From Noviherbaspirillum sp. Root189 (GTDB taxonomy: Bacteria; Pseudomonadota; Gammaproteobacteria; Burkholderiales; Burkholderiaceae_D), in assembly GCF_001428545.1 (NCBI RefSeq), contig NZ_LMHZ01000029.1, positions 1,709 to 46,902 of the forward strand: a stretch of 45,194 nt of DNA. The letters are read 5' to 3'. Position 1 is the first letter of the stretch. Every line of letters starts with the position of its first letter. Shown piece after piece: positions 28,851 to 45,194 of the stretch. Below the pieces are notes generated by a model. It saw only the letters and a program-made list of their open reading frames with translations. It had not been told where the DNA came from and did no database searches. A program made the position numbers and the translations under genes.

Positions 28851-30050
28851 TTAATGCGTTGCGCCCACGATCACAGGGATTTCCGTGGCAGGCGGCGTAT
28901 TGCGGCTACGTCCGCAACGCACGATGCCATCGATCATCACCATACCGACGCCCGGGATATCGCCGAGTTGCACGCTGTCGAGCAGATCCCTTCCCGCCGA
29001 ATGCTGCGCCTTGTCCATGAACACGAAATCCGCTGCCCGACCCACTTCAATGAGGCCACAGTTAAGCTTGCGTATCCGTGCGGTGTTACCGGTTGCGAAG
29101 CAGAACACAAGCTCTGCGGGAATGCGGGCGATACTGGACAGCAGCGCAACCATACGCAGAATTCCCAGGGGTTGTACGCCGGAGCCTGCCGGACCGTCCG
29201 TGCCAAGGATGACGCGATGCGGACACTTGAGCTGCATCGCCGTCTGGGCGGCCGCAATTGCCACACGCTCATTGCCGTTGTGGACAATCTCGATGGCGCG
29301 GCGCGACTTTTCGCAAAGCTCGCAGACGTGGGCTTCCGGCAATGCCGTGTGTCCGCCATTGATGTGGCCGATCACGTCGGCGTCGGCTTCGAGGACGACA
29401 TCCTTGTCGATCAGCCCGGAGCCGGGAATCGACGGGCCGCCGGTATGGATAGTGCTCTGGATACCGTACTTGCGCGCCCAGGCCACCATCTTTTGCGCTT
29501 CTTCGCCAGCCTTCACCGATCCGAGACCGACTTCGCCCAGCAGTGAAACCCCGGCCTCGGCCAACTCCTTGAAGTCCTGTTCCGTCATCCCTTTTTCGAT
29601 GACGGGCGCGCCGGCGAGGACTTTGACGCCACCCGGGCGGAAATTATCAAAGGCGCGCTGCGCGGTAATCGCGAGCGCCTTGAGGCCGACGATATCTTTC
29701 GGCCGGCCAGGAAGATGCACTTCACCGGCTGAGATCATGGTGGTGACGCCGCCATTCATCGTGGAATCGATCCAGCCGAGCTGGCCCTGTCGTGGCGTCC
29801 AGTCACCAAATACCGGATGAACGTGACTGTCAATCAGGCCGGGCGCGACGCAGGTCTTGCGTGCGTCAATGACCACGTCGGCCTGGTCAGTATCGCAATC
29901 GGAAGCGGATCCGACGGCGGTAATCAAACCGTCGTTGACCACGATCGTATCGGCCGACAGCACCGGGTTATCGATGTCACCCGAGAGTAATAGTCCAATG
30001 TTCCTGATGACGACTTTTCCGGATGTCTGTGCGCTACCTGCATCTGCCAT
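28851..30050 (-). CDS. Enamidase-like amidohydrolase (6-oxo-tetrahydronicotinate hydrolase)
   Basis: A 399-residue metal-dependent amidohydrolase. It agrees strongly, from memory, with enamidase of Eubacterium barkeri: IRNIGLLLSGDIDNPVLSADT at the start, GGVTTMISAG, LPGRPKDIVGLKALAIT, LLGEVGLGSVK, IHTGG, HINGG and the ending SRNTPPA. Likely metal ligands are His76, His78, Lys180, His202, His229 and Asp285. Enamidase is an Fe-Zn enzyme that opens 1,4,5,6-tetrahydro-6-oxonicotinate to ammonia and 2-formylglutarate. ATG at 30050 has AGGAGG before it. It sits in the fpr-tetR-enamidase-transporter group, divergent from the 6-hydroxynicotinate-reductase-like gene that would make its substrate. Confidence 0.85.
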   Translation of the reverse strand: MADAGSAQTSGKVVIRNIGLLLSGDIDNPVLSADTIVVNDGLITAVGSASDCDTDQADVVIDARKTCVAPGLIDSHVHPVFGDWTPRQGQLGWIDSTMNGGVTTMISAGEVHLPGRPKDIVGLKALAITAQRAFDNFRPGGVKVLAGAPVIEKGMTEQDFKELAEAGVSLLGEVGLGSVKAGEEAQKMVAWARKYGIQSTIHTGGPSIPGSGLIDKDVVLEADADVIGHINGGHTALPEAHVCELCEKSRRAIEIVHNGNERVAIAAAQTAMQLKCPHRVILGTDGPAGSGVQPLGILRMVALLSSIARIPAELVFCFATGNTARIRKLNCGLIEVGRAADFVFMDKAQHSAGRDLLDSVQLGDIPGVGMVMIDGIVRCGRSRNTPPATEIPVIVGATH

Positions 30051-30129
30051 GTCCTGCCTCCTGTTTCAGTTAAACGCTACCCGCCGCAAGCGGGATGGAT
30101 TCAATGACAACAATTCGCAATCTTTCGCT

Positions 30130-30861
30130 TCACCCCGTCGACATGATGGGAAGCGACACATCCTGAGAGGCAAGGCCGTCAGGATTGACACATACCTGGC
30201 GGATCACCGCCGATGTGATGAACTCTTCCCAGTAGGCAAGCGCGTCTGCCGCACCAAGGTCTTCGCCAAGGAAGGCCGACAGCGTGAAGCGATTGGATAG
30301 ATAGAAATAGGCGAGAGCAGCACTCATCAGATAGATATCCCGTGCCCTCAGGTCGGCGCGAAACACGCCGGTTTCGGCGCCTTTCGCGAGCACCCGGCCC
30401 ATCAGGGAAATCGCTGGCGAAGAATACTCGCGTGCGCGCATCGATTTGGAGATGTGCTTGCCGCGATGCAGGTTCTCGCTGTTGAGCAGGGTAATGAACT
30501 CGGGATGCTGCTGGTAATAGGTCCACATGAAACGCACCAGCGTTTGCATGTCTTCGATCGGGTCGTCAAGCTTGAGGGCAAGCCTGGATTCCGCCTCGTT
30601 GAAACGGCGGTAGGCATCCTCGATTACGGCAATAAAGAGCTCTTCCTTATTGCCGAAATAGTAATAAATCATCCGGTCATGCGAGTTGGCCGCCTTCGAT
30701 ATCTGCTCGATGCGGCCCCCGGCGAAACCATGTTTTGCAAATACCTTGGTCGCTGCGCGCAGGATACTTTCCTGCGTCGACTGGGCCGCCAGCTCCCGCT
30801 GGCGCGGACGCTTTGCGGAGGCCGCAGTGGCAGTGGTGCGCCGGGGGGAGGAAGTCGCCAT
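30130..30861 (-). CDS. TetR-family transcriptional regulator
   Basis: A 243-residue regulator. After a basic, low-complexity N-terminal tail (about 28 residues) comes the TetR DNA-binding domain: ESILRAATKVFAKHGFAGGRIEQISKAANSHDRMIYYYFGNKEELF, residues 31-76 in pieces. The C-terminal part resembles TetR_C domains of RutR-like regulators. It lies between fpr and the enamidase-like gene, so it is the natural candidate to control the divergent catabolic units through the palindromes at 32062-32103. No clear ribosome-binding site is seen before ATG at 30861. Confidence 0.88.
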   Translation of the reverse strand: MATSSPRRTTATAASAKRPRQRELAAQSTQESILRAATKVFAKHGFAGGRIEQISKAANSHDRMIYYYFGNKEELFIAVIEDAYRRFNEAESRLALKLDDPIEDMQTLVRFMWTYYQQHPEFITLLNSENLHRGKHISKSMRAREYSSPAISLMGRVLAKGAETGVFRADLRARDIYLMSAALAYFYLSNRFTLSAFLGEDLGAADALAYWEEFITSAVIRQVCVNPDGLASQDVSLPIMSTG

Positions 30862-30925
30862 GTCGGATGTTATTGAAAAACCGTCAGCCTTGCGGACATA
30901 ACAATGTCATTCAAGGCCATGGCGT

Positions 30926-31699
30926 TTATTGCTCCGCGAACGCGCGTTCGATCACGAAATCGCCGGGTGTCGAGGTGTTGCCTTCGACGAAGCTGCGTTC
31001 TTCCAGCATGCGCTTCAGATCACGCAGCATTGCCGGGCTGCCGCAGATCATGACACGGTCGGTTTCGCGATTGAGAGCGGGCACGCCGAGGTCGGAAAAC
31101 AGCTTGCCGTTCTCGATCAGGTCGGTAATGCGGCCCATGTTCTTGTACTGCTCTCGCGTTACCGTCGGGTAATAGCGCAGCTTGCTGGTGACCAGGTCAC
31201 CCAGGAATTCATGATTTGGCAGGTGCTCGACCAGCAGATCGTGATATGCCAGTTCGTCAGTTGTGCGGACGCCATGCACCAGGACGACCTGATCGAATTT
31301 TTCATAGGTTTCCGGATCGCGGATGATGCTCATGAAGGGCGCGAGTCCGGTGCCGGTCGACAGCAGGTAGAGGCGTTTGCCGGGTAACAAATAGTCGATT
31401 ACCAGCGTGCCGGTCGGCTTGCGGCCGACAATGACCGTGTCGCCGACCTGGATATTCTGCAGGCGCGATGTCAGGGGGCCGTCCGGTACCTTGATACTGA
31501 GGAATTCGAGGTGTTCTTCGTAGTTGGCGCTGACGATACTGTAGGCACGCAGCAGTGGTTTGTTGTTGACACGCAGGCCGATCATCGTGAAATGGCCGTT
31601 GCTGAACCGCAGCGACGGGTCGCGGGTTGTGGTGAACGTGAACAGGCTTCCATTCCAGTGATGGACGCTCAAGACACGTTCTTCGTTAAAGGCGCTCAT
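30926..31699 (-). CDS. fpr: Ferredoxin--NADP(+) reductase
   Basis: A 257-residue reductase of the bacterial Fpr type. FAD binding is shown by RAYSIVSANYEEHLEF (the RxYS motif) near residue 52, NADP binding by LLSTGTGLAPFMSII and by MICGSPAMLRDLKRML; the C-terminus FVIERAFAEQ is typical. ATG at 31699 is chosen because GGAGAAAGC lies right before it; the open frame to 31738 has no such site. It passes electrons between NADPH and ferredoxin. Beside a ferredoxin-dependent type of 6-hydroxynicotinate reductase it is probably the electron feeder of that step. Confidence 0.92.
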   Translation of the reverse strand: MSAFNEERVLSVHHWNGSLFTFTTTRDPSLRFSNGHFTMIGLRVNNKPLLRAYSIVSANYEEHLEFLSIKVPDGPLTSRLQNIQVGDTVIVGRKPTGTLVIDYLLPGKRLYLLSTGTGLAPFMSIIRDPETYEKFDQVVLVHGVRTTDELAYHDLLVEHLPNHEFLGDLVTSKLRYYPTVTREQYKNMGRITDLIENGKLFSDLGVPALNRETDRVMICGSPAMLRDLKRMLEERSFVEGNTSTPGDFVIERAFAEQ

Positions 31700-31734
31700 G
31701 CTTTCTCCGTTGCGAAAATAAAAATCAGGCGTGG

Positions 31735-31976
31735 TCAACGCTCAAGGTGCATGAGTTTACCTGTTTGTTCCCGACAAGTCTCCGGATCGGGCAGTGCATC
31801 AAGCGAATTTGAGATGCCGGAGCAGGCCGCGAGGCACTGCGCAGTGCGCCTTGTGAATCGCCGTAGTCGTTCCGGCAGGTACTCGCGCCCATAAATTGCC
31901 TTCGCAATGCAAGCCATGTAATCGGTGCATGCCATCTATTAAGAGCGATGCAGGCCTCTGCAAGGACATGAGTCAT
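31735..31976 (-). pseudogene. Probable decayed ferredoxin gene
   Basis: Reading leftward from ATG at 31976 gives MTHVLAEACI, very like the start of 7Fe/4Fe-4S ferredoxins (MTHVVTE.CI). The frame then loses all further similarity and the ferredoxin-like ending ALPDPET...TGKLMHLER appears in another frame, closing at 31735. The two pieces are offset by a frameshift, the whole is about 80 codons instead of about 107, and the Cys clusters are mostly gone. It lies just upstream of fpr. I read it as the remains of a ferredoxin gene that once worked with fpr and the reductase; chance similarity remains possible as the matched pieces are short. Confidence 0.4.
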
Positions 31977-32145: not shown

Positions 32146-33789
32146 ATGACCGAGCACACGAAGACAGACGGATTGCCCGGGATGGAACCCCAGGTGCTGG
32201 AACGGGCCAAGCCCCGCAGCGAACGCATGGCAGGTGACAAGATCGAATGCAATGCCTGTCCAGTGCTGTGCCAGATTACGGTAGGGCGCTCCGGGGCCTG
32301 CGACCGCTATGCCAACGTTGACGGCACCCTGGTGCGCGTCGATCCGGTGATCCTGCTTCGAAAGGCTGTCGATGGCGGCGAGCAGGTTCTGGTGCCGTTT
32401 GCGGGGCGAACGTTAACAAACGACATCGAGTCCGTCGCTCCGGTGGCAGAGTCGGCTGGTGGTAATGCAAGTAATGCAAATGCGCCGGCCGCATGGAATG
32501 GCGACCTGCTCCATGCCGACGACGTATTTGTTACCGGAGTCGGATCCTCGACCACCTATCCCGACTACAAACCTGCTCCTTTCATCGTTTCGTCCCAGTC
32601 CGATGGTGTCGATATGGTGACCGTTGTCACCGAAGGCATCTTCAGTTACTGCAGCTTCAAGGTAAAAATCGACACTGACCGCTACCTTGGTCCTGAACAG
32701 GCCAACATTCGCTACAAGGGCGAAGTCGTCGGTCATGTCACCACGGCCGAATACGGATCGCAGATGCTGTCATTGGGTGGCGTCCACCACCTGACGGGCG
32801 GCAGCAAAAAAGAGGGCCGCCTGACCGCCGAAATCATGCAATTGCTTGGCAACAAGCAGGCTGCGGAGGTCATGATTGACGGCGGCTCCCAGATCGTCAT
32901 CCAGGCCGGTCGCGCGCCGATTGTGAACGGCATCGAAGAACAGCGTATGCGGGTCGGCTGCGGGTCGGCCACCATTGGAATCTTCGCCAAGCAATTATTC
33001 GGCAAGGTCGACGAAGTGATTGTCGTCGACGACCATATCACTGGCGTGCTGACCGAGCACCAGGCCGGCCGTTGTCTCGATATGCCGCTGTCCGGCGTCA
33101 AGATCCGTGGGCGCAAGTCCACCCCGGGCCGCTACTTTCAGGTCGCCAATCCCGGTACCGGGTGGGGCGGCACCGACATCGCCGATCCACTCAGCATTCT
33201 CGAAGGTTGGGATGCCAGTATCGCCAGACCGGGAATGCGCCTCCTGATGACGTCGACGACAGGCGAACATGCTGCATGGTTCGTTCTCGATGAAAACCTG
33301 ACGCCGGTCGAAATGCCGATGCCGCCTGAAGTGCGCAGCGTCGTCGAGCGTATTGGCGAAAACTGCGAACCGTCGCTCACCACCGTGCTGTTCCTTGGCG
33401 GCGCCGGTGGCAGTCTGCGTGCCGGTGTGACAGAAAATCCGGTCCTGCTGACACGCGCCATCAAGAATGCACTCGTCAATGTCACCTGTGGCGGGGCGCC
33501 AGCCTATGTCTGGCCAGGCGGTGGCATCACGGTGATGACCGATGTGACGCGCATGCCGGACAATAGCTTCGGCACCGTGCCGACACCCGCGATCGTTGCG
33601 CCGATTGAATTCACGATGCGCCTTGCCGACTATCAGGCGCTTGGCGGACATATGGAATATGTACGTCCGCTATCCTCTGTCCTTCAAAGTGGCGCATGGC
33701 ATAACGAGGGCGCACCGCAACGGCGAAAATGGCTGCAGCAACCCGATGTCAATGCCTGGCCATCCGCGGTCGGGCCAATGCTCGGTTAG
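32146..33789 (+). CDS. hnr: 6-hydroxynicotinate-reductase-like Fe-S protein
   Basis: A 547-residue protein with an N-terminal Fe-S motif: Cys35, Cys38, Cys42 and Cys52 in IECNACPVLCQITVGRSGACDRY. The long C-terminal part is rich in Gly-Gly turns and matches no common domain by eye. The pattern agrees with 6-hydroxynicotinate reductase (Hnr) of Eubacterium barkeri, an Fe-S flavoprotein with covalently bound flavin that reduces 6-hydroxynicotinate to 1,4,5,6-tetrahydro-6-oxonicotinate with ferredoxin. The assignment is strengthened by the enamidase-like gene, which takes the product, by fpr as electron source and by the NicAB-like hydroxylase, which makes the substrate. First gene of the rightward operon, after the palindromic operator. 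Confidence 0.75.
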   Translation: MTEHTKTDGLPGMEPQVLERAKPRSERMAGDKIECNACPVLCQITVGRSGACDRYANVDGTLVRVDPVILLRKAVDGGEQVLVPFAGRTLTNDIESVAPVAESAGGNASNANAPAAWNGDLLHADDVFVTGVGSSTTYPDYKPAPFIVSSQSDGVDMVTVVTEGIFSYCSFKVKIDTDRYLGPEQANIRYKGEVVGHVTTAEYGSQMLSLGGVHHLTGGSKKEGRLTAEIMQLLGNKQAAEVMIDGGSQIVIQAGRAPIVNGIEEQRMRVGCGSATIGIFAKQLFGKVDEVIVVDDHITGVLTEHQAGRCLDMPLSGVKIRGRKSTPGRYFQVANPGTGWGGTDIADPLSILEGWDASIARPGMRLLMTSTTGEHAAWFVLDENLTPVEMPMPPEVRSVVERIGENCEPSLTTVLFLGGAGGSLRAGVTENPVLLTRAIKNALVNVTCGGAPAYVWPGGGITVMTDVTRMPDNSFGTVPTPAIVAPIEFTMRLADYQALGGHMEYVRPLSSVLQSGAWHNEGAPQRRKWLQQPDVNAWPSAVGPMLG

Positions 33790-33802
33790 GCGGGTGCGAG
33801 AG

Positions 33803-34732
33803 ATGGTCGCTCAACGTGCTTCGCTACCCGACGGACGTCTCCACTTTTCGCATGGACCCATCGACCTGATCATTCAGGCCGACGGACTACCTGACAGCAT
33901 CCGCGCCGCCCATGCACACGCATGGCAACGCTTCGAAACGCTGTTATCCGAGCTGGTTGACGAATTGCCCGCCCTACGCTCACCGCTTGGTGAGCAACGC
34001 CTGCTGAAGGGCAGCGTGGCCCAACGCATGTGGGAAGCGTGTTATCCCTTTCGCTCTGGCTTTATTACTCCGATGGCTGCAGTGGCCGGATCGGTCGCAC
34101 AGGAGATCATCGCCTGTTATGCGCGCCGCAATATCACTCGTGCGTCGGTCAACAATGGTGGCGACATCGCGCTCTACCTTAGTGCAGGCAGTTCATATCG
34201 GGTCGGCATATGCACCGACATAGACGCGGCAACCGAAAAAGCGGCACAAGGACTGGCACTGCCAGCGGACCTGCAACTTCGCATTGATGCGGCGATGCCT
34301 GTGCGTGGCATCGCCACCAGCGGTTGGCGTGGACGCAGTTTTTCGCTCGGCATCGCGGACAGCGTTACGGTGCTTGCGGCCAGCGCAGCCCAAGCGGACG
34401 CCGCAGCCACGGTGATCGCCAATGCCGTCAATATCGACGATGCGCGTATCAAGCGAGTGCCTGCCTGCTTACTCAAGGACGAGACTGATCTTGGAGAAAT
34501 ACCGGTTACCGTAGATGTGCCCCAACTCGATCACGCGCGCGTTCATGCTGCGCTGCAGGCGGGTTTGTTACAGGCACGGCAATTGCAGGAACAAGGGCTG
34601 ATCTGGAACGCGATACTTGCATGCCAGGGACAGGTGATGCATTTGCATGATCATGGGCTGAGCGTCGAGCCACGCTCCACGCAAAGAATCGCGTACGATA
34701 TTGGCAAGAGTCGGTATTCAGCGGTACTCTAG
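33803..34732 (+). CDS. UPF0280-family protein (ApbE-like)
   Basis: A 309-residue protein with the UPF0280 landmarks: ITPMAAVAGSVAQEI at about residues 88-102 and VNNGGDIALYL at 116-126. The family shares the fold of ApbE flavinyltransferases, and the NGGD segment corresponds to their FAD-binding loop. The open frame reaches back to 33596, deep in the reductase gene; ATG at 33803, or GTG at 33794, is more likely, leaving about 5-13 bases between the genes. Its place directly after the reductase, an enzyme type with covalent flavin, suggests it attaches that flavin. No experimental function is known to me for the family. Confidence 0.8.
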   Translation: MVAQRASLPDGRLHFSHGPIDLIIQADGLPDSIRAAHAHAWQRFETLLSELVDELPALRSPLGEQRLLKGSVAQRMWEACYPFRSGFITPMAAVAGSVAQEIIACYARRNITRASVNNGGDIALYLSAGSSYRVGICTDIDAATEKAAQGLALPADLQLRIDAAMPVRGIATSGWRGRSFSLGIADSVTVLAASAAQADAAATVIANAVNIDDARIKRVPACLLKDETDLGEIPVTVDVPQLDHARVHAALQAGLLQARQLQEQGLIWNAILACQGQVMHLHDHGLSVEPRSTQRIAYDIGKSRYSAVL

Positions 34733-34803
34733 AAAAAATGAAAGGGAAGGGCTGGGCACATGATTCAATCCATGATGCAATCAACACCTGCGAGGGCATT
34801 TCC

Positions 34804-35445
34804 ATGATCGAGATACGTCGGGTTTTCTGGCATGTGGAAGACATTTACCACGAGTTCGGGCCCGTGGCCGAGCACCCGCTGAGACGCGGATATATCGCAG
34901 GCGTTCTGACCAACCCGTATGCTGGCCGCTATGAACCCGATATTCTGCCGATGATGGAAGAACTTAATCCGCTCGGCGTCCGGCTGGCTCACGAACTGCT
35001 GGAGCATCTTGCCGTGCCGGCCGAACATATCGAGGGTTATGGCAAGGGCGCAATGATCGGTTCCGCAGGCGAACTCGAACATGGTGCGCTTTGGCACGTG
35101 CCCGGAGGGTATGCGATGCGGGAATTGCTGGGATGGAAGGGCAACCCGGCAGACTATGCCGCCGGCAAAGGGGGAGGCGTTAAAGGGCAACCCGGCAATG
35201 GCTTGTCGATCGTTCCTTCCACCAAGAAAGTCACGGCTCCCGGCGGCACGCTCGATGTCCCCCTGACGCACATCAACGCCGCCTATGTGCGCAGCCATTT
35301 CGATGCAATCGAAGTACGGGTGCCAGGAACGCCGCGCCCCGAGGAACTGGTCGTCATCCTCGCCATGAGTACCGGGCCGCGCATACACGCGAGGGTTGGC
35401 GGGCTGAAGGCAGCCGACATTTCACAGTGGGACGGACTGCGCTAA
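34804..35445 (+). CDS. DUF1185 (amino acid synthesis family) protein, copy A
   Basis: A 213-residue protein of the DUF1185/PF06684 type. Shared with the next gene are NPYAGRY, YGKGAMIGSAGELEH, the VPSTKK segment, DVPLTHINAAYVRSHFDA and RVGGL. It has an extra insertion of about 25 residues after ELEH (LGWKGNPADYAAGKGGGVKG) that copy B lacks. ATG at 34804 (MIEIRRV) is preferred over 34738, with GAGGG upstream. The biochemical function is unknown; the name comes from old annotation. Cotranscription with a reductase and the nicotinate hydroxylase suggests a role in the ring catabolism. Confidence 0.82.
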   Translation: MIEIRRVFWHVEDIYHEFGPVAEHPLRRGYIAGVLTNPYAGRYEPDILPMMEELNPLGVRLAHELLEHLAVPAEHIEGYGKGAMIGSAGELEHGALWHVPGGYAMRELLGWKGNPADYAAGKGGGVKGQPGNGLSIVPSTKKVTAPGGTLDVPLTHINAAYVRSHFDAIEVRVPGTPRPEELVVILAMSTGPRIHARVGGLKAADISQWDGLR

Positions 35446-35503: not shown

Positions 35504-36088
35504 ATGCCAGCAAAGATCCGCAAACTGATTGTGCAGGTGGAAGAAACCCACGTCGAAATGGACCGCGCGATTACACCGCCGACACGCAAGGCATTGGCCA
35601 TGGCGGTCATCGACAATCCCTATGCCGGACGCTATGCCGAATCGCTCGATGAATTGATTGCCATTGGCGAAGAGCTCGGCGGCTTGCTGGGCAAGCGCTG
35701 CGTCGAGGCATTGGGCATTGCACCAGAACAGGCACAAAGTTATGGCAAGGCCGCTATTGTGGGTGAGGCGGGCGAGCTGGAACACGCGGCCGCGATTCTG
35801 CATCCCAAGCTTGGTGCGCCGCTGCGCATCGCTGTGAGTAAAGGCGCAGCTCTGGTGCCTTCCAGCAAGAAGCGCGGCGGGTTGGGTACGGCGATCGATG
35901 TGCCGCTCGGTCACAAGGATGCGGCTTTCGTGCGCAGTCATTTCGACGCCATGGAAGCGCGGGTCGCCGATGCGCCGCGATCCAACGAGATTGTCGTTGC
36001 TGTTGTCGTCACCGACAGTGGCCGGCCGTTGCCCCGCGTGGGAGGGCTCCAGTCCCACGAAATCAAAGGCGAGGATGGCTTGCGCTAG
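35504..36088 (+). CDS. DUF1185 (amino acid synthesis family) protein, copy B
   Basis: A 194-residue paralogue of the preceding gene, with NPYAGRY, YGKAAIVGEAGELEH, VPSSKK, DVPLGHKDAAFVRSHFDA and RVGGLQ in the same order. AAGGA stands before ATG at 35504. The conserved charged residues (Arg in AGRY, Lys in YGK, Glu in GELEH, Lys-Lys and the His/Asp of VRSHFDA) may line a common active site. Two different copies in a row suggest a hetero-oligomer or two successive reactions on similar substrates. No function can be assigned. Confidence 0.85.
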   Translation: MPAKIRKLIVQVEETHVEMDRAITPPTRKALAMAVIDNPYAGRYAESLDELIAIGEELGGLLGKRCVEALGIAPEQAQSYGKAAIVGEAGELEHAAAILHPKLGAPLRIAVSKGAALVPSSKKRGGLGTAIDVPLGHKDAAFVRSHFDAMEARVADAPRSNEIVVAVVVTDSGRPLPRVGGLQSHEIKGEDGLR

Positions 36089-37348: not shown

Positions 37349-37360
37349 AGCACAAGGCAA

Positions 37361-37394: not shown

Positions 37395-37479
37395 CGCATG
37401 ATGCTGGTCCACGGATCGGCAGGCAGTATTCTCGTTTCGGATCGTCATGGATTCATCCAGCTGAAAGAAAGAACGTGTC

Positions 37480-39375
37480 ATGAGTTTTTCCGGCTTCGCG
37501 GTGCAGTTGCTGAATGGTTTGGCGGGAGCGTCTTCCCTGTTTCTCGTTGCGGCCGGCCTGTCGCTAATCTTTGGCGTGACGCGCATCGTGAACTTTGCGC
37601 ATGGTTCGTTTTACATGCTGGGCATTTATATCGCCTATACGCTCGTCGAGCGTCTCGGCGGCAGCCTGGGTTTCTGGCCCTCGCTTTTGCTCGCGGCGCT
37701 TGCCGTCGGCATCCTTGGCGCGTTGGTGGAAATGATCTTGCTGCGGCGGATTTATCATGCGCCCGAATTGTTTCAGTTACTCGCCACATTTGCGCTGGTC
37801 CTTGTCATCAAGGATGCGGCCCTGTGGTTCTGGGGCCCGGATGAACTGCTCGGCCCACGCGCGCCGGGCCTGAAAGGGGCGGTGGAAATTTTCGGTAGAC
37901 AGTTCCCCACGTATGACTTGTTCCTCATTGTGATCGGCCCGGTCGTGCTCGGACTGCTCTGGCTGCTGCTGACGCGTACCCGATGGGGCACGCTAGTGCG
38001 CGCGGCGACGCAGGACCGCGAGATGGTCAGCGCTCTTGGGGTCAATGAAGCCTGGCTGTTCACCAGTGTCTTTGCGCTTGGGGCGATGCTCGCAGGCCTG
38101 GGCGGGGCATTGCAATTACCGCGTGAACCGGCCAACCTTGAAATGGACCTCGTTACCATCGGCGCTGCTTTCGTCGTCGTTGTGGTGGGTGGCATGGGTT
38201 CGATTACGGGTGCCTATGTTGCGGCTCTCCTGATTGCCGAGTTGAAAGCAATTTGCATCTGGCTCGGGCTGGTCGACATATTCGGCATCAGCGTGTCTTT
38301 CTCCAAGCTGACACTGGTTGTAGAGTTCCTTGTCATGGCAGTCGTGCTGGTCGCACGCCCCAGTGGCTTGTTGGGACGACCGCAGGCGCCGACGCGCAAC
38401 GCGGGCATCGTGGAAGCACCATTGCGCGCAGCGAGGCCATCGTATAAGTTCGGTGTCATCGCGCTGATTGCAGTGCTGGCCGTGGTCCCATTGGTGATGC
38501 GCGACTCGCCTTATGTCACGGTACTTGCCATTGACCTGATGGTCGCAGCCCTATTTGCCACCGGCCTGCACTTCATCATGGGCCCTGCGGGCATGCATTC
38601 ATTCGGTCACGCGGCCTACTTCGGACTTGGCGCCTATGGCGCAGCCTTGCTGGTGCGTACTGCAGGATTGCCGATGGAGGCCGCACTTGTCCTTGCCCCT
38701 CTCGTTGCGGCGCTTGGTGCATTGCTGTTCGGCTGGTTTTGTGTGCGGTTGTCTGGCGTCTACCTTGCGATGCTGACACTCGCATTCGCGCAGATTACCT
38801 GGGCGATCACTTACCAATGGGACACCGTCACCGGCGGAAGCAATGGACTGACCGGCGTCTGGCCCGCAACATGGTTGTCAGACAAAACCGCGTATTACTA
38901 TCTGACCCTCGTGATCGTCGCAGGCGGCGTATTGCTGCTGTGGCGCATCCTGTATTCACCGTTTGGCTATGCGATGCGTGCCAGCCGCGACTCTGCCTTG
39001 CGTGCGGACGCAATCGGCATCAACGTCAAGCACATCCAATGGACAGCCTTCATTCTCGCCGGCACGGCAGCCGGTGCGGCGGGGGCGCTCTATGCATTCT
39101 CAAAAGGCAGTATCTCGCCTGAATCACTGTATGTCGGCAAATCGGTCGACGGTATCGTCATGGTGATGCTGGGCGGCATACAGACACTGATCGGTCCGGT
39201 AGTCGGCGCAGTCACTTTCAACTGGTTGCATGACACGGTGGCGCGCAATACCGATTACTGGCGCGCGATGCTGGGCGGTATCATACTTCTGCTGGTGTTA
39301 CTCTTCCCGCAGGGGATCGCGGGCTTTGCCCGGCAACTGTTCGACCGCAAGCGCGAAGCCAAGGAGGCACATTGA
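37480..39375 (+). CDS. Fused branched-chain-type ABC permease (LivH-LivM)
   Basis: A 631-residue membrane protein that joins both permeases of an HAAT transporter. Residues about 1-300 are LivH-like (GLSLIFGVTRIVNFAHGSFYMLG; VVVVGGMGSITGAYVAALL), and about 325-631 are LivM-like (GPAGMHSFGHAAYFGLGAYGAALL; ALRADAIGINVKHIQWTAFILAG). The fusion fixes a 1:1 ratio of both parts. It follows the binding protein after about 130 bases and its stop shares one base with the ATG of the next ATPase gene. Fused forms are known in betaproteobacteria but are less common than separate genes. Confidence 0.92.
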   Translation: MSFSGFAVQLLNGLAGASSLFLVAAGLSLIFGVTRIVNFAHGSFYMLGIYIAYTLVERLGGSLGFWPSLLLAALAVGILGALVEMILLRRIYHAPELFQLLATFALVLVIKDAALWFWGPDELLGPRAPGLKGAVEIFGRQFPTYDLFLIVIGPVVLGLLWLLLTRTRWGTLVRAATQDREMVSALGVNEAWLFTSVFALGAMLAGLGGALQLPREPANLEMDLVTIGAAFVVVVVGGMGSITGAYVAALLIAELKAICIWLGLVDIFGISVSFSKLTLVVEFLVMAVVLVARPSGLLGRPQAPTRNAGIVEAPLRAARPSYKFGVIALIAVLAVVPLVMRDSPYVTVLAIDLMVAALFATGLHFIMGPAGMHSFGHAAYFGLGAYGAALLVRTAGLPMEAALVLAPLVAALGALLFGWFCVRLSGVYLAMLTLAFAQITWAITYQWDTVTGGSNGLTGVWPATWLSDKTAYYYLTLVIVAGGVLLLWRILYSPFGYAMRASRDSALRADAIGINVKHIQWTAFILAGTAAGAAGALYAFSKGSISPESLYVGKSVDGIVMVMLGGIQTLIGPVVGAVTFNWLHDTVARNTDYWRAMLGGIILLLVLLFPQGIAGFARQLFDRKREAKEAH

Positions 39376-40154
39376 TGAGCCTGATGACAGTAAGTAATCT
39401 CGGGAAGTCCTTTGGCGGCGTGAAGGCGGTGGATGGCATCAGTTTTGAACTGCATGCCGGCGAATTGCTCGCCCTGATCGGTCCCAACGGCGCAGGAAAA
39501 TCGACAACCTTTAACATGGTGAACGGTCAGCTGAAGGCTGATGCCGGCTCCATCCTGTTTGACGGCAAGGAACTGGTCGGACTCAAGCCACGTGAGATAT
39601 GGCGTCTCAGTGTCAGCCGCACCTTTCAGATTGCGGAAACCTTTGCCTCGCTGACCGTGGTCGAAAACGTGCAGATGGCGTTGCTGTCTGCTGACGGCAA
39701 GCTGTTTTCAATGTGGCGTAAAGCCGCGGCCTACAAACGCGACCAGGCGCTCGATCTGCTGGAGCAGGTTGGCATGAAGGCACAGGCCGATCGCCCGTGC
39801 AGCGTACTTGCCTACGGCGATGTCAAACGCGTGGAGCTGGCGATCGCCATGGCGAACCAGCCCAAACTGCTGTTGATGGACGAGCCTACCGCAGGCATGG
39901 CTCCCAAGGAGCGCAATGAACTAATGGCGCTGACCAAAAAGCTGGTAACCGAGCGCAATATGGCGGTGCTGTTTACCGAGCACAGTATGGATGTGGTCTT
40001 TGCCTATGCCGACCGGATGATCGTGCTGGCACGGGGACGTCTGATTGCCGAGGGCAAGCCGGATGAAATTCGCGATGATCCTAAAGTTCAGGAAGTCTAC
40101 TTTGGCACCGGCAAGACTTTCGAAAAGCTGAAATTGTCCAGGGAGGTGGCGTAA
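39375..40154 (+). CDS. ABC transporter ATP-binding protein (LivG-like)
   Basis: A 259-residue ATPase. Walker A is GPNGAGKST near residue 38, Walker B LLLMDEPTAGM near 165, and the H-loop FTEHSMDV follows. The ABC signature is unusual: LAYGDVKRVELA in place of the usual LSxGQ-type motif, as often seen in LivG, which tends to have YGxxR. ATG at 39375 is taken as start because AAGGAGG ends seven bases before it; it overlaps the permease stop by one base. Energises the fused permease together with the next gene. Confidence 0.92.
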   Translation: MSLMTVSNLGKSFGGVKAVDGISFELHAGELLALIGPNGAGKSTTFNMVNGQLKADAGSILFDGKELVGLKPREIWRLSVSRTFQIAETFASLTVVENVQMALLSADGKLFSMWRKAAAYKRDQALDLLEQVGMKAQADRPCSVLAYGDVKRVELAIAMANQPKLLLMDEPTAGMAPKERNELMALTKKLVTERNMAVLFTEHSMDVVFAYADRMIVLARGRLIAEGKPDEIRDDPKVQEVYFGTGKTFEKLKLSREVA

Positions 40155-40930
40155 TGCAGGCGGTTGTCGAAAACCCGGTGCGAACTCCGTCCAATGGCGT
40201 TGTGGGCGAGGCGCTTCTCAGCGTAAAGGCGCTCAACGCCTGGTACGGCGCAGCGCAGATCCTGTTCAATGTCGATCTTGATGTGCGCCGTGGCGAAGTC
40301 GTCGCGTTGATGGGACGCAATGGCGCTGGCAAATCAACCTCGCTCAAGGCCATCATGGGGCTGATACCCAAGCGGAGAGGGCAGCTCAGCTTCATGGGGC
40401 ATGATATTACCACTGCGGAGCCGCATGAGACGGCGGTTCGCGGTCTTGGATTCGTGCCGGAAGACCGCCGCGTGTTTACCGATCTCACCGTGATGGAAAA
40501 CCTCGATGTCGGACGTCAGCCTAAACGGACCTGGCCCGATGGCACGCCTGCGCCCTTATGGACGCCGGAGCGCCTGTTCAAGCTTTTTCCGAACCTCGGC
40601 GAAATGCCCAACCGTCCCGGCGGTCGCATGAGCGGCGGCGAACAACAGATGCTGACGGTCGCGCGTACGTTAATGGGCAATCCCTACCTTGTGCTCCTTG
40701 ATGAGCCATCCGAAGGCGTGGCGCCGGTCATCGTCGAACAAATGGCGCAGATGATCCTGGAACTCAAAGCCGAAGGCGTCAGTATCCTGCTCTCCGAACA
40801 GAATATGCATTTCGCGGAGCTCGTGTCGGACCGCGCCTATGTATTGGAAAAGGGGCAGATCCGGTTCGACGGAACGATGGACGAACTTGCGTCCAATGAG
40901 GCGGTGCGGCAGGCTTACCTCAGCGTCTGA
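40154..40930 (+). CDS. ABC transporter ATP-binding protein (LivF-like)
   Basis: A 258-residue ATPase with Walker A GRNGAGKST, a canonical signature MSGGEQQMLTVARTLM, Walker B LVLLDEPSEGV and the H-loop SEQNMH. LivF-type features include LNAWYGAAQILFNVDLDV at the start and DRAYVLEKGQIRFDG near the end. It carries an N-terminal tail of about 20 residues before the domain. The ATG shares one base with the livG stop, so the two are translationally coupled. Last gene of the transporter set, followed 11 bases later by the hydroxylase genes. Confidence 0.93.
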   Translation: MQAVVENPVRTPSNGVVGEALLSVKALNAWYGAAQILFNVDLDVRRGEVVALMGRNGAGKSTSLKAIMGLIPKRRGQLSFMGHDITTAEPHETAVRGLGFVPEDRRVFTDLTVMENLDVGRQPKRTWPDGTPAPLWTPERLFKLFPNLGEMPNRPGGRMSGGEQQMLTVARTLMGNPYLVLLDEPSEGVAPVIVEQMAQMILELKAEGVSILLSEQNMHFAELVSDRAYVLEKGQIRFDGTMDELASNEAVRQAYLSV

Positions 40931-40941
40931 GGAGTCGGCCT

Positions 40942-41439
40942 ATGAGCATCAAGCCGCCACCAATCCCGCTGTACGTCAATGGCAAGGATTACGCCCTCGA
41001 TGTGCCCGGAGATGCGCCGCTGCTTTACATCCTTCGCAACGACCTCGAACTCAACGGCCCCAAGTACGGCTGTGGCCTGGGGCAGTGTGGCGCATGCACG
41101 GTGCTGATCGATGGCAGGCCAGCACGCTCCTGCGTGATCCCGGTGAAAGGCGTGGCGGGTCGACGCGTGACAACGCTGGAAGGACTTGGCCGCAAGGGTG
41201 CTCTGCACGTCGTCCAGCGCGCATTCATTGAAGAACAGGCAGCCCAGTGCGGCTACTGCCTCAACGGGATGATCATGGCCACAGTTGCACTTTTGCGGAT
41301 TAATCCAAATCCGGATGATGAACAGATCAGGGACGCTTTGTCGCACAACTTATGCCGGTGCGGAACACATGTTGAGATCATGCAGGCGGTCCATCGTGCG
41401 GCAAAACTGATGACCGAAACCATGGAGGAGTCCGAATGA
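40942..41439 (+). CDS. nicA: Nicotinate-hydroxylase-type 2Fe-2S subunit (NicA-like)
   Basis: A 165-residue protein with two [2Fe-2S] domains of the xanthine-dehydrogenase family. Plant-type cluster: CGLGQCGACTVLIDGRPARSC near residues 47-67. Second cluster: QCGYCLNGMIM near 102 and LCRCGTHVEI near 137. It passes electrons from the molybdenum subunit encoded next to it. NicA of Pseudomonas putida is of similar size (about 157 residues). GAGGAG stands before ATG at 40942; the stop overlaps the next ATG by four bases (ATGA). No FAD subunit gene accompanies it, as expected for the NicAB type. Confidence 0.88.
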   Translation: MSIKPPPIPLYVNGKDYALDVPGDAPLLYILRNDLELNGPKYGCGLGQCGACTVLIDGRPARSCVIPVKGVAGRRVTTLEGLGRKGALHVVQRAFIEEQAAQCGYCLNGMIMATVALLRINPNPDDEQIRDALSHNLCRCGTHVEIMQAVHRAAKLMTETMEESE

Positions 41440-44400
41440 CGCGGCGCGCAGACCTGCCGAAGACCAGGCGCGATTTCCACGATGCGACCGGCGTATTACT
41501 CGTTACCCGCGATCCGCCGCCACCGCCGCCGCCAGTCAAGGGTCAACCAGCCGCCGTCCCCGGTAATCCCGCCGAAGGCGTCGAAATTCTGGTCGCCGTG
41601 TGGGACGATGGCAGTGTCACCGCATTGAACGGCCACGTCGACCTCGGTACCGGCATCCGCACCGCCTTGTCACAGATCGTTGCGGAAGAACTCGATATCC
41701 GGCTCGACTGCGTGAACATGGTTCTCGGCGACACGACACGCGCGCCGAATCAGGGAGCCACAATCGCCAGTGCATCGCTGCAGATTCACGCCGTGCCGTT
41801 GCGCGCAGCCGCCGCGCAGGCGCGCGCATGGTTGCTGTCGCGGGCTGCAGAACGACTCGGCGTGACGTCGCAGCAGCTGACTGTTCACAAGGGCATTGTT
41901 GCCGTCGATGGTATGCGGGAAAGGTCTGTCGCCTATGCCGACCTGGTGGCAGGCGAGCATGTCGAGTTGCGCCTTGATCTCAACACCCCGGTCAAATCGC
42001 CGACGGACTATCGCCTGGTGGGCCAGAGCATGCCCCGCGTCGACATTCCCGACAAAGCCACCGGTGAACTGACTTATGTGCATGACCTCCGTGTGCCGGG
42101 CATGTTGCATGGTCGCGTGATCCGGCCGCCGTATGCGGGCGCCGATCATGGCGATTTCATTGGCAATACGCTTGAATCCGTCGATGAACATTCGATCGCG
42201 CATATTCCCGGCATCGCCGGTGTCGTGGTGATCGGTGATTTCGTCGGCGTGGTTGCCGCGCGCGAGGAGCACGCGGAACAGGCGATGCGTGAGCTTGTCG
42301 TCAAGTGGAAAAACTTCCCGGCGCTGCCCGCGTTGGACGACGTAGCTGCCGCAATCCGGGCCAATCCTTCGACAAGCCGTGTCGTCGCCAATCAGGGTGA
42401 CGTCGATGCAGGCTTGGAAGCCGCAGCCAAACGCATCGATAGAACGTACCTCTGGCCGTACCAGCTACATGGATCCATCGGTCCTTCCTGCGCCGTGGCT
42501 GACTGGCGCCAGGACCGCATGACAGTATGGGCCGGTTCACAGAATCCACATGTGCTGCGCGCCGACCTTGCCAAACTGATGGATTTGCCGGACACCGCCA
42601 TCGACGTGATTCGCATGGAAGCCGCCGGTTGCTATGGCCGCAACTGCGCGGATGACGTGGCTGCCGATGCCGCGTTGCTGTCACGCGCGGTGGGCAATCC
42701 GGTCCGCGTCCAACTGACGCGCGCGCAGGAGCATCAGTGGGAGCCAAAAGGCGCGGCGCAGCTAATGGAAGTGCGCGGCGGCCTGGATGCCGACGGCGGC
42801 GTTGCCGCTTACGATTTCCAGACTTCGTACCCGTCCAACGGCGCGGTGACATTGGCCCTCCTATTAACCGGCAAGGTCGCACCGGGGCCCATCGCCTATG
42901 AAATGGGTGACCGTACGTCGGTGCCTCCCTATGACTACAAGAACTTGCGTGTCACGATCAATGACATGGCGCCGATCCTGCGCGCATCCTGGCTACGTGG
43001 CGTGTCGGCCTTGCCGAACTCTTTTGCGCATGAGAGCTACATTGATGAACTGGCGACCGAAGCTGGCGTCGATCCGGTCGAGTTCCGGCTGCGTTACCTG
43101 AAGGATGACAGGGCCGCCGAACTGGTCAAGGCCACCGCTGAACGTGCAGGTTGGGTGTCGCATACCATGCCGCAACAGCAAGAAGCCGACGGCGATTTCC
43201 TGAAAGGGCAGGGTTTTGCTTATGCCCGTTATGTGCATAGCAAGTTTCCTGGTTTCGGCGCGGCATGGTCCGCATGGGTGGCTGATGTGGAAGTCAACCG
43301 CAATACCGGTGAAGTCCATGTGCGTCGCGTCGTAGTCGGTCATGACGCCGGCCTGATGGTTAACCCGGCCGGCGTGAAACATCAGATTCACGGCAACGTG
43401 GTGCAGACGACCAGCCGCGCGCTGAAGGAAAAGGTGCAGGTCGAGCCACAGACCAACACCGTTGTGAATCGGGAATGGGGCAGTTATCCCATCCTCAACT
43501 TCCGCGAAGTACCGGTTATCGATGTGATGATGATGCCTCGACCCGACCAGCCTCCTCTAGGCGCGGGAGAGTCGTCATCCGTTCCCGGTACCGCGGCGAT
43601 AGCCAATGCAATTTTCGATGCTACCGGTGTGCGTTTTCGGGAGCCGCCTTTTACGCCGGAGGTGGTCAGGGCCGCGCTTGAGCCGCCGCAGCCTACACCC
43701 GCCACACCGCCGCGCACTCGACGCGCCTGGTGGGCACTACCCGGCGCACTGATTGCCGGCACTGCCGGGCTGATCGCCGCGATGGCAGGCTGGAAATCCA
43801 GCATTCCCGAAATTTCCAGGATCGATCCCGGGATCTATACGGCCAATGTCATCGAACGGGGCCGCTTGCTCGCCGCGGCGGGTGACTGCGCGGTCTGCCA
43901 TACCGCGCCCGGCGGCATGCGGAATGCAGGCGGCCGTGCGATGGAGACACCGTTCGGGCAAATTTTTACGACCAATCTGACGCCGGACCCGGAAACCGGC
44001 ATCGGTAAATGGTCATTCACGGCATTTCAGCGTGCGATGCGGGAAGGGATTTCGCGTGATGGACGGCATCTGTATCCGGCCTTCCCATACACGTCATTTA
44101 CCAGGATGAACGACGACGACCTGATGGCGTTGTACGCTTATCTGATGACGCAGCCGTCCGTGCGCTCCGATGTACCCGAGTCGACACTGAAGTTTCCCTT
44201 TGGCTTTCGTCCTTTGATGAACGTCTGGAATGCGCTGTACCTGCAACCGGGTCCCGAAATCGCGGATGCATCCCGTTCACCGCAATGGAACCGGGGCGCT
44301 TACCTGGTCAATGGGGTTGGCCACTGTACGGCATGCCACAGCCCGCGCAATGCAATGGGCGCCGAGAAGTCCGGGCCAGATTTTCTGGCTGGCGCCATGA

Positions 44401-45023
44401 TTGACGGTTGGGAAGCGCCGCCTCTCACGTCACGCACGCATGCGCCGGTACCGTGGACGGAAAAAGAACTTTATCGCTATCTGCGGCAGGGGCATACCGA
44501 GCATCATGGTGTAGCGGCGGGGCCGATGGCTCCAGTGGTCCGGGAGTTGTCGCAGCTCCCGGATGAGGATGTCCAGGCGATGGCGCATTACCTTGCTTCG
44601 TTCAACGCGCCAGTTTCACAGCAACAGGCCGAGATGGCGGCCGCGGAAGTCATCGTCAGCGCCAAGGCGCGCGCGGACCAGATCCGCAATGAAAGCAGCC
44701 GGCTGTTCTCATCTGCTTGCGGCAGTTGCCATCATGAAGGTAAAGGGTCGGTTCAGCTAGGCATGAACAAACCCCTTGCGCTCAATAGTAATCTGCACAG
44801 CAACACACCAGACAATCTGGTGCAGGTGATCCTGCATGGCATTCAGGAAACCGCGAGCGGAGAGATGGGATTCATGCCGGCATTCCGGGATAATCTCACT
44901 GATGCGCAAGTTGCACGGATCGCCGCTTACATGCGGCAGGTGTATGCGCCCGATAAACCGGCGTGGAGCCATATCGAGCAAACGGTTGCAAGGTTGCGCA
45001 CTACGCCTCACGGCGGTCATTAA
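41436..45023 (+). CDS. nicB: Nicotinate-hydroxylase-type molybdopterin/cytochrome c subunit (NicB-like)
   Basis: A 1195-residue protein, close to the length of P. putida NicB. Residues about 45-750 form the molybdopterin-binding aldehyde-oxidase/XDH-like part (LNGHVDLGTGIRTALSQIVAEEL; GAGESSSVPGTAAIANAI). A hydrophobic helix (WWALPGALIAGTAGLIAAMAG) lies near 762-785. The C-terminal part has three c-type haem sites: CAVCH (818-822), CTACH (964-968) and CGSCH (1095-1099). It hydroxylates nicotinate at C6 with water and hands electrons through the haems to the respiratory chain. A proline run (residues about 27-33) marks the N-terminal linker. Other N-heterocycles cannot be excluded as substrate. 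Confidence 0.85.
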   Translation: MTRRADLPKTRRDFHDATGVLLVTRDPPPPPPPVKGQPAAVPGNPAEGVEILVAVWDDGSVTALNGHVDLGTGIRTALSQIVAEELDIRLDCVNMVLGDTTRAPNQGATIASASLQIHAVPLRAAAAQARAWLLSRAAERLGVTSQQLTVHKGIVAVDGMRERSVAYADLVAGEHVELRLDLNTPVKSPTDYRLVGQSMPRVDIPDKATGELTYVHDLRVPGMLHGRVIRPPYAGADHGDFIGNTLESVDEHSIAHIPGIAGVVVIGDFVGVVAAREEHAEQAMRELVVKWKNFPALPALDDVAAAIRANPSTSRVVANQGDVDAGLEAAAKRIDRTYLWPYQLHGSIGPSCAVADWRQDRMTVWAGSQNPHVLRADLAKLMDLPDTAIDVIRMEAAGCYGRNCADDVAADAALLSRAVGNPVRVQLTRAQEHQWEPKGAAQLMEVRGGLDADGGVAAYDFQTSYPSNGAVTLALLLTGKVAPGPIAYEMGDRTSVPPYDYKNLRVTINDMAPILRASWLRGVSALPNSFAHESYIDELATEAGVDPVEFRLRYLKDDRAAELVKATAERAGWVSHTMPQQQEADGDFLKGQGFAYARYVHSKFPGFGAAWSAWVADVEVNRNTGEVHVRRVVVGHDAGLMVNPAGVKHQIHGNVVQTTSRALKEKVQVEPQTNTVVNREWGSYPILNFREVPVIDVMMMPRPDQPPLGAGESSSVPGTAAIANAIFDATGVRFREPPFTPEVVRAALEPPQPTPATPPRTRRAWWALPGALIAGTAGLIAAMAGWKSSIPEISRIDPGIYTANVIERGRLLAAAGDCAVCHTAPGGMRNAGGRAMETPFGQIFTTNLTPDPETGIGKWSFTAFQRAMREGISRDGRHLYPAFPYTSFTRMNDDDLMALYAYLMTQPSVRSDVPESTLKFPFGFRPLMNVWNALYLQPGPEIADASRSPQWNRGAYLVNGVGHCTACHSPRNAMGAEKSGPDFLAGAMIDGWEAPPLTSRTHAPVPWTEKELYRYLRQGHTEHHGVAAGPMAPVVRELSQLPDEDVQAMAHYLASFNAPVSQQQAEMAAAEVIVSAKARADQIRNESSRLFSSACGSCHHEGKGSVQLGMNKPLALNSNLHSNTPDNLVQVILHGIQETASGEMGFMPAFRDNLTDAQVARIAAYMRQVYAPDKPAWSHIEQTVARLRTTPHGGH

Positions 45024-45068
45024 CGATAAACCGCCGGTATGAAAACTGATAAACAAAAGGAAAACAAC

Positions 45069-45194
45069 ATGAGTGCATCGAAGGCAAAAGCCAGCTTTCA
45101 CTGGGACGATCCGCTGCTCTTGGACCAGCAGCTGACGAACGACGAACGCATGGTGCGCGACGCCGCCAATGCGTATTGCCAGGACAAGCTGCAA
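45069..45194 (+). CDS. gcdH: Glutaryl-CoA dehydrogenase, N-terminal fragment
   Basis: The first 42 codons are in the window; the gene runs off the right edge. The opening (FHWDDPLLLDQQLTNDER then MVRDAANAYCQDKLQ) is characteristic of GcdH acyl-CoA dehydrogenases. The enzyme oxidises and decarboxylates glutaryl-CoA to crotonyl-CoA. AAGGA precedes ATG at 45069, 45 bases after the hydroxylase gene, so it belongs to the same operon. Its presence makes sense if the ring of nicotinate is degraded to glutarate. Confidence 0.88.
   Translation, partial: MSASKAKASFHWDDPLLLDQQLTNDERMVRDAANAYCQDKLQ

Follow-up and report, generated by a model that had tools for sequence, protein, structure and literature searches.

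Gene organization and conservation of the locus

The window analysed here is a stretch of 45,194 nucleotides from Noviherbaspirillum sp. Root189. The part under study (28851–45194) comprises two divergent gene units, listed below together with an adjoining transporter gene (window positions, strand, product).

27903..28844, minus: EamA transporter; 6 bases from the ena gene; at the same place in relatives G003 and G009 and in 1 of 80 related loci
28851..30050, minus: Ena, enamidase-type amidohydrolase (match to PDB 2vun)
30130..30861, minus: TetR-family regulator (TetR_C_29); also in 70 of 80 related loci
30926..31738, minus: Fpr, flavoprotein of ferredoxin–NADP reductase type (NCBIfam NF008178 at 162.9 bits, under the equivalog cut-off of 390); in 66 of 80 related loci
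32146..33789, plus: Hnr, 6-hydroxynicotinate reductase family (probable; homologue annotation, conserved cysteines)
33803..34732, plus: UPF0280 protein with predicted ApbE-like fold (NCBIfam NF003322, AF2 model, Foldseek)
34738..35445, plus: PF06684 (AA_synth) protein, clade A (PF06684 domain)
35504..36088, plus: PF06684 (AA_synth) protein, clade B (PF06684 domain; PDB 2qtp, 3byq)
36143..37348, plus: periplasmic substrate-binding protein of an ABC importer (Peripla_BP_6, 4.7e-72)
37480..39375, plus: ABC importer permease, fused LivH-LivM type (domain matches)
39372..40154, plus: ABC ATPase, LivG type (domain matches)
40154..40930, plus: ABC ATPase, LivF type (domain matches)
40942..41439, plus: NicA, [2Fe-2S] subunit of nicotinate hydroxylase (domain matches)
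41436..45023, plus: NicB, molybdopterin subunit with three haem c sites (domains, CxxCH motifs)
45069..45194, plus: gcdH (glutaryl-CoA dehydrogenase), first 42 codons, truncated at the contig end

An earlier interpretation of this DNA, made without database searches (the sequence-only reading), had named Ena, Fpr, an Hnr-like protein, an importer, NicA, a tri-haem NicB and GcdH. All of these genes lie at about the positions assigned to them, gcdH being represented by its 42 codons only. The inventory was incomplete in that it omitted the TetR regulator, the UPF0280 protein, the two PF06684 proteins and the EamA transporter. Domain matches identify the importer encoded at 36143–40930 as one of the branched-chain type.

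The gene order is shared with five relatives at 57–95% identity per protein, some of the compared stretches stopping early. Relative G009 is without the clade A PF06684 gene at the corresponding place, and among the five only G003 and G009 have an EamA gene at the locus; membership of the EamA transporter in the operon is doubtful. Across 80 related loci the order is largely kept, and this recurrence shows that the arrangement is not due to chance.

Hydroxylase, reductase and enamidase

NicAB has the architecture of a 2Fe-2S subunit plus a molybdenum subunit with a C-terminal three-haem cytochrome, the three CxxCH motifs of NicB being located at residues 818, 964 and 1095. Its likeness to Pseudomonas-type nic clusters (nicAB, nicXR, nicCDEF; pBYT5-1 and A. 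lipoferum AZO_p2) is evident from the 57.2% identity of NicB with the protein adjoining nicX in Pseudomonas BYT-5 and the 60.4% identity with that of Azospirillum lipoferum. These two reference clusters are of the oxidative type and seemingly complete.

The protein encoded at 32146–33789 had no Pfam or NCBIfam match at E<=0.001 and no relative in the PDB. Sixteen of the 25 plasmid homologues listed are annotated as 6-hydroxynicotinate reductase, with 56.6–73.6% identity among those listed. C35, C38, C42 and C52 are invariant in all 113 alignment rows with a letter there, C169 and C407 are invariant as well, and C272 is present in 113 of 114 rows; these seven conserved cysteines fit an iron–sulphur protein, and four of them lie in a ferredoxin-like cluster. 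An AlphaFold model built from 42 sequences reached a pLDDT of only 50.3 and was therefore not used for a fold search. The flavin of Hnr is said, from work of Alhapel in 2006, to be covalently bound. E. barkeri is not included in the 80 related loci kept for comparison; PMC3511419 gives 42% identity between the Hnr proteins of SG-6C and E. barkeri. Taking this published relative and the record annotations as a basis, the protein probably belongs to the Hnr family.

For Fpr we propose a role in feeding electrons from NADPH via ferredoxin to Hnr. Its gene was found in 18 of 23 loci with NicAB versus 2 of 18 with a hydroxylase of the xanthine-dehydrogenase (XDH) type, an association that is not significant over independent pairs (5 pairs; median p 0.25).

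Over residues 11–390 the protein encoded at 28851–30050 aligns with PDB entry 2vun (ENAMIDASE; E=3.1e-108), which we take to be the structure of the Eubacterium barkeri enzyme. Identical residues occupy 181 of 380 positions (about 48%, counted from the alignment midline), including the HxH, E, H, H and D positions that are presumably the Fe and Zn ligands. Judged from this alignment, the relation to enamidase is direct and strong, as the sequence-only reading had expected. The amidohydrolase fold by itself is no proof of a hydrolase, since KpiC, an amidohydrolase 28% identical to enamidase, is an extradiol dioxygenase according to PMC7356986.

Hnr loci can swap both their hydroxylase, which is NicAB or of the XDH type, and their ring opener, which is an enamidase or HyuAB. 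Clade B of PF06684 is present in 25 of 25 Ena loci versus 2 of 13 HyuAB loci, which is likewise not significant over independent pairs (3 pairs; median p 0.5).

UPF0280 and PF06684 proteins

On the longer open reading frame 33596–34732, NCBIfam NF003322 scores 382.7 bits, above its cut-off of 290, and UPF0280 accompanies Hnr in all 45 surveyed loci. A Foldseek search with the AF2 model of this protein (pLDDT 86.8) returned 2o34 at the top, followed by ApbE/FmnB/Ftp structures, which occupy all of ranks 3–41 with a best E of 2.7e-4 but TM scores of only 0.26–0.52 and rmsd values of 7–15; the match to Pfam ApbE is 19.1 bits, under the cut-off of 25.6. Because the model suggests an ApbE-like fold, UPF0280 may have a role in the assembly of the Hnr cofactor, and we propose that it acts in flavin or cofactor assembly of this enzyme. 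ApbE targets carry a [S/T]GA[S/T]-like motif (PMC10979944). This motif is not conserved in Hnr, SGAT occurring three times over 114 rows. The closest conserved stretch, GSA-T, has Gly first and Ala at its last position in 44 of 114 rows, which rules out T276 of Hnr as an ApbE-like flavin attachment site.

In the clade A PF06684 protein the domain begins near residue 20–26, so that the real start codon may lie further downstream. The clade B protein matches PDB entries 2qtp (E=2e-86) and 3byq (2.9e-29), structures that have been interpreted in terms of amino-acid metabolism (PMC2954203). At this locus, the two PF06684 proteins may act in an aldehyde or semialdehyde step; for TgnF, an acceleration of oxidation by an aldehyde dehydrogenase has been reported. 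It is tempting to speculate, in a proposal that may well prove wrong, that Hnr, UPF0280 and a PF06684 protein are the fixed core of the reductive nicotinate route throughout Pseudomonadota, to which different hydroxylases and ring openers can be coupled; UPF0280 would then be a dedicated flavin-installer of Hnr, that is, a cytoplasmic relative of ApbE using a new attachment site, and clade B would handle the aldehyde of the enamidase branch.

gcdH and the downstream steps

The gcdH gene starts 45 bases past nicB and is limited to 42 codons because the end of the window is the end of the contig (G000:C29, 46902 nucleotides long). Its 5' end, in which the contig stops, is a repeat that also occurs on contigs C78 and C17. 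In relative G010 a full gcdH copy, matching PDB 3gnc (1e-231), follows nicB. Direct tblastn was preferred to clustering of the open reading frames downstream of NicB, which was noisy because of antisense frames. Among 23 related stretches, tblastn placed gcdH beside nicB in 5; in the other 18, some of which are short, it was not found right of nicB. A CoA-transferase III gene is present in 5 of the 23, in 4 of them with gcdH. A crude motif scan for an aldehyde dehydrogenase near the operon was positive in just 1 of 34 loci (G249), pointing to an oxidation step without a local gene; this result and the 18 stretches in which gcdH was not found count against the pathway proposed below.

Proposed pathway and alternatives

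We consider it very probable that the locus serves nicotinate catabolism via a reductive (tetrahydro-oxonicotinate) route in this Burkholderiales bacterium, a model whose substrate, electron path and chemistry we infer from sequence. Nicotinate would be imported by the ABC importer and hydroxylated to 6-hydroxynicotinate by NicAB, whose haem c domain would relay the electrons in the direction of the respiratory chain. Hnr, receiving low-potential electrons from Fpr, probably with a ferredoxin, is predicted to saturate the ring to give 1,4,5,6-tetrahydro-6-oxonicotinate, from which Ena and water would yield 2-formylglutarate and NH3; water and not oxygen would thus open the ring. Loss of CO2 and aldehyde oxidation, in a step without an assigned gene, could lead from 2-formylglutarate to glutarate, which after activation with CoA would be converted by GcdH to crotonyl-CoA. 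The hybrid reductive route put forward in the sequence-only reading is supported by the 2vun match, the genome search for NicX and close NicC described below, the nicotinamidase or MarR genes of some operons and the position of gcdH beside nicB in some relatives; it is less new than that reading implied, an Hnr cluster being already in print (PMC3511419).

It appears unlikely that the main substrate of these enzymes is a different nitrogen heterocycle, such as a chlorinated pyridine carboxylate, and nicotinate only a side substrate. These importer and molybdo-hydroxylase families are generally known for wide substrate ranges, and the hydroxylase type switches at least eight times on the Hnr tree. 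SG-6C, as described in PMC3511419, channels 6-chloronicotinate into the reductive route; a chlorinated analogue, however, would also enter at 6-hydroxynicotinate. Moreover, a nicotinamidase gene occurs in 39 of 80 related loci, its representative scoring above the NCBIfam cut-off, and a MarR gene in 5 of 80, the representative of which has its best matches in 6PCP/6PCO, structures of the 6-hydroxynicotinate sensor BpsR (PMC6837509). Neither gene is in the window itself, but in related operons the nicotinamidase or BpsR-like regulator would provide a tie to nicotinate.

It is very improbable that flux is carried by the oxidative route (NicC-NicX-NicD-NicF), the Hnr branch being accessory or serving detoxification. 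NicAB is common to both routes; the Pseudomonas-type route continues from 6-hydroxynicotinate with a monooxygenase and a ring-cleaving dioxygenase. Sixty genomes were searched with NicX and NicC sequences from a plasmid record. In the 90-contig draft of the genome itself (G000), which could miss a stretch, neither NicX (E<=1e-20) nor a close NicC (E<=1e-60) was found. Its eight FAD_binding_3 places represent two 4-hydroxybenzoate 3-monooxygenases and six members of other subfamilies, some of these uncharacterized, one protein reaching 110 bits to the NicC structure 8uiq. Identical searches were positive elsewhere, for NicC in 6 and for NicX in 4 of the 60 genomes, and the operon-bearing relatives G002, G010 and G037 gave matches to the NicC query at 36–45%. 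The only genomes with a NicX-like protein (G003 and G022 at 51–52%, G024 and G037 at 38%) all carry Hnr as well, on different contigs, so both routes may coexist in relatives. Equally improbable is an E. barkeri-like ending in which 2-hydroxymethylglutarate, methyleneglutarate and dimethylmalate lead to propionate and pyruvate rather than to glutarate and GcdH: the first three steps are the same in both cases, but the closeness of gcdH to nicB, here and in 5 of 23 related stretches, argues against it.

Relation to known systems

E. barkeri ferments nicotinate with Ndh, Hnr, Ena and further enzymes, its later steps differing from those proposed here. It resembles the reductive route proposed here in its enamidase and, by report, in the Hnr family; unlike here, the organism is anaerobic and its nicotinate dehydrogenase (3hrd) matches NicB weakly (110.5 bits).

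The route itself is not new, as both Azorhizobium biochemistry and a Bradyrhizobiaceae Hnr cluster are in print. The nicotinate route of Azorhizobium passes through THON, as stated in PMC9304392. The published description (PMC3511419) places Hnr in Azorhizobium and Bradyrhizobiaceae in a cluster with an ABC importer and two unknown proteins (A. caulinodans AZC_2804-2790; SG-6C CSIRO_2076-2090). The importer and two conserved unknowns are shared with the present locus, as are the reduction to THON by Hnr and glutarate downstream, both predicted here. By this description the locus differs from those clusters, which belong to another proteobacterial class, in having Fpr and TetR in the divergent unit and gcdH beside nicB.

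New here are the constant pairing of Hnr with UPF0280 and the interchangeability of hydroxylase and ring opener. Two or three helper genes of no known job accompany the route, and families listed as unknown (UPF0280, PF06684) gain a likely functional home. Operons of this reductive kind are widespread among Burkholderiales, which makes an 'anaerobe-type' ring reduction of nicotinate common in that order and places it next to a cytochrome-linked hydroxylase. A similar set is found on pNCHU2750a of Neorhizobium NCHU2750, which has nicAB, fpr, a Liv-type importer, hnr, a UPF0280-like gene and PF06684 genes, whereas HyuA/HyuB (hydantoinase/oxoprolinase type) replaces the enamidase and a MarR regulator replaces TetR.

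Results

The genes of the proposed nicotinate route lie in two divergent units separated by a 407-base gap:

Leftward unit: fpr-tetR-ena(-eamA)
Rightward unit: hnr-UPF0280-PF06684(A)-PF06684(B)-SBP-permease-ATPase-ATPase-nicA-nicB-gcdH

Intergenic gaps inside the units range from -4 to 131 bases, so each unit reads like an operon. The right end of the window (C29:1709-46902) coincides with the contig end. A Wzc-type polysaccharide tyrosine kinase is encoded at window positions 22084-24288, and the adjoining long run of minus-strand ORFs (window 1-22000) is perhaps an exopolysaccharide cluster.

The product of ena, the leftmost enzyme, matched the enamidase PDB 2vun (E=3.1e-108; 181 of 380 aligned positions identical), the next PDB matches being 8.8e-6 or worse; NCBIfam returned weak general amidohydrolase matches only, far under their cut-offs. 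NicB contains three CxxCH motifs; its identity to the NicB proteins of Pseudomonas BYT-5 and Azospirillum lipoferum is 57.2% and 60.4%, respectively. The enamidase-like hydrolase and the NicA/NicB-like hydroxylase with three haem c sites, both named in the sequence-only reading, are thus corroborated. In their records, the nicB genes of Pseudomonas BYT-5 and Azospirillum lipoferum stand beside genes for a 2,5-dihydroxypyridine dioxygenase, an FAD monooxygenase, a hydrolase, a racemase and an amidohydrolase. Paraburkholderia xenovorans LB400 has a second NicB-like place (G076 C2:617446-621000; 39% identical), which has two TGA codons in frame.

Hnr, of the 6-hydroxynicotinate reductase family, had no Pfam or NCBIfam match at E<=0.001 and no PDB relative. 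A homologue occurs in 26 plasmid records; the 25 listed ones share 56.6-73.6% identity, and 16 of these are annotated as 6-hydroxynicotinate reductase. Seven cysteines are kept in all or all but one of 114 rows, four of them clustered in the style of a ferredoxin site. In one genome the Hnr match is split into two overlapping pieces (G095:C1:2969820-2971252), so this copy is either broken or mis-sequenced.

In the window, the 5' part of gcdH comprises a unique initial stretch, which indicates that the copy beside nicB is real though assembled no further, and then 99 bases common to contigs C78 and C17:

45096-45194 (window): gcdH 5' end
C78:428-526: gcdH 5' end, with ambiguous bases such as a collapsed repeat would give
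C17:28094-28291: gcdH start, then an internal near-exact direct duplication

Among 23 related-genome stretches right of nicB (2.2 to 19 kb), five contained gcdH, five a CoA-transferase III gene and four both. Directly 3' of nicB on the same strand, G010 has gcdH alone, its product matching PDB 3gnc glutaryl-CoA dehydrogenase, and G002 has both genes; in three loci (L130, L131, L137) both lie no more than about 4 kb from nicB but on the other strand, and one (L126) has the transferase gene without gcdH. Neither gene was found in 17 of the 23 stretches, which weakens the gcdH link in general. A crude scan for an aldehyde dehydrogenase motif matched in one of 34 loci, so that no gene is assigned to the decarboxylation/oxidation step.

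Hnr is encoded in 32 of 398 genomes of the phylum sample, Noviherbaspirillum sp. Root189 included. We surveyed 45 loci: 20 of the 31 other hits of this sample, all nine other hits from 60 relatives, five of the 26 plasmid records and 11 of the 80 best Hnr-bearing loci. UPF0280 was present in all 45 and a PF06684 protein in 43 (absent in G217 and G044).

Gene combinations in the 45 loci (some of the stretches were short, and two of the HyuAB loci matched HyuA alone)
Ena + NicAB: 19
HyuAB + XDH-type hydroxylase: 8
Ena + XDH-type hydroxylase: 5
HyuAB + NicAB: 2
HyuAB, no hydroxylase seen: 3
Ena, no hydroxylase seen: 1
No ring opener seen: 7

In the Hnr tree, made by a quick method and with some weak forks and two long rows, the hydroxylase switches at least eight times and the ring opener at least three times. 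PF06684 clade B accompanied Ena in 25 of 25 loci and HyuAB in two of 13; Fpr was found with NicAB in 18 of 23 and with the XDH-type hydroxylase in two of 18. Neither the clade B-Ena nor the Fpr-NicAB association was significant over independent pairs. HyuA and/or HyuB stand where the enamidase would be in 13 of the 45 loci (e.g. L153, L155, L034, L158), and the pattern suggests HyuAB as an alternative enzyme that opens the ring of the same intermediate, possibly with ATP. In genome G009 an additional, diverged PF06684 gene lies shortly after nicB (L027:12378-12959), and UPF0280 is followed by clade B with no clade A gene in between.

A profile search found at least 586 Hnr relatives among at least 595 pattern matches; the best 80 loci were retained, by their titles nearly all from Burkholderiales or unresolved betaproteobacteria. 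UPF0280 was present in 78 of these best 80; the two others are short, with Hnr close to the right end (L067, 7068 bases; L084, 3055 bases).

Discussion

That the route needs no ring-cleaving oxygenase agrees with the genome itself, where neither NicX (E<=1e-20) nor NicC (E<=1e-60) was matched; at these thresholds NicX matched in four and NicC in six of a set of 60 genomes that includes this one. Its eight FAD_binding_3 places (E<=1e-20) comprise two 4-hydroxybenzoate 3-monooxygenases and six members of other subfamilies; of two such proteins run against PDB, one scored 110 bits against a NicC structure, and the other matched nothing at 1e-30. All four NicX-matching genomes (G003, G022, G024, G037) are among the ten Hnr carriers of the 60, their NicX-like proteins being encoded on contigs other than Hnr's, and the operon carriers G002, G010 and G037 have NicC-query matches at 36-45%. 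Going by these matches, some relatives may own parts of both nicotinate routes, which was not seen in Noviherbaspirillum sp. Root189. Alternatively, the NicX-like proteins of those four genomes may do something else.

As to the substrate, 39 of the best 80 loci (of at least 586) contain a nicotinamidase-like gene, whose representative scored 180.9 (NCBIfam cut-off, 174) and matched the nicotinamidase PDB 2wt9 at 4.7e-83. Five of the 80 contain a MarR gene resembling a representative with best PDB match 6PCP/6PCO, given in PMC6837509 as BpsR, a repressor responsive to 6-hydroxynicotinate. The window itself holds neither gene. In L065 (19440-20168) and 38 other loci of L037-L116 the nicotinamidase gene lies in the operon, upstream of nicA. 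By eye, the N-terminal stretch of the representative looks like an export signal, in which case nicotinate would be made outside the cytoplasm.

A 2006 paper on E. barkeri reportedly named nine Proteobacteria with the first three enzymes. For A. caulinodans, B. japonicum, R. palustris and SG-6C, PMC3511419 describes an Hnr cluster that also encodes an importer and two unknown proteins. The glutarate route of Azorhizobium is cited in the same paper and reviewed in PMC9304392. The titles and excerpts surveyed, mostly outside subscription journals, held no account of the Burkholderiales operon or of a UPF0280-Hnr link. The pathway is thus already known; new is the widespread Burkholderiales operon as a further member.

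NicAB would hand its electrons to a cytochrome, so that Hnr would need a separate low-potential donor, and the XDH-type hydroxylase could itself yield reduced pyridine nucleotide. The counts are in keeping with a tie of Fpr to NicAB through this need, without proving it; Fpr was not seen in the stretch for five of 23 NicAB loci.

Hnr of E. barkeri is said to carry a covalently bound flavin (Alhapel 2006). With the UPF0280 model (pLDDT 86.8), a fold search returned 2o34 first and then solely ApbE, FmnB and Ftp flavin transferases to rank 41, at modest TM-scores of 0.26-0.52. Together these points suggest that UPF0280 installs or handles the Hnr flavin. Against this role, the Pfam ApbE model stays under its cut-off on UPF0280, and UPF0280 has relatives in Desulfovibrio (2o34) too. 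Nor is the ApbE target motif [S/T]GA[S/T] (PMC10979944) conserved in Hnr.

For the PF06684 proteins we infer action at the 2-formylglutarate/glutarate semialdehyde step. According to PMC7913881, the homologue TgnF boosts succinate semialdehyde oxidation in Acinetobacter, but no such stimulation could be demonstrated for HcdD. Clade B matched PDB 2qtp (2e-86), which is SPO0826, a protein proposed to act in amino-acid metabolism on account of adjoining BCAA-type transporter genes (PMC2954203). Given the operon context here, BCAA-type transporters beside PF06684 genes may in some cases be nicotinate importers.
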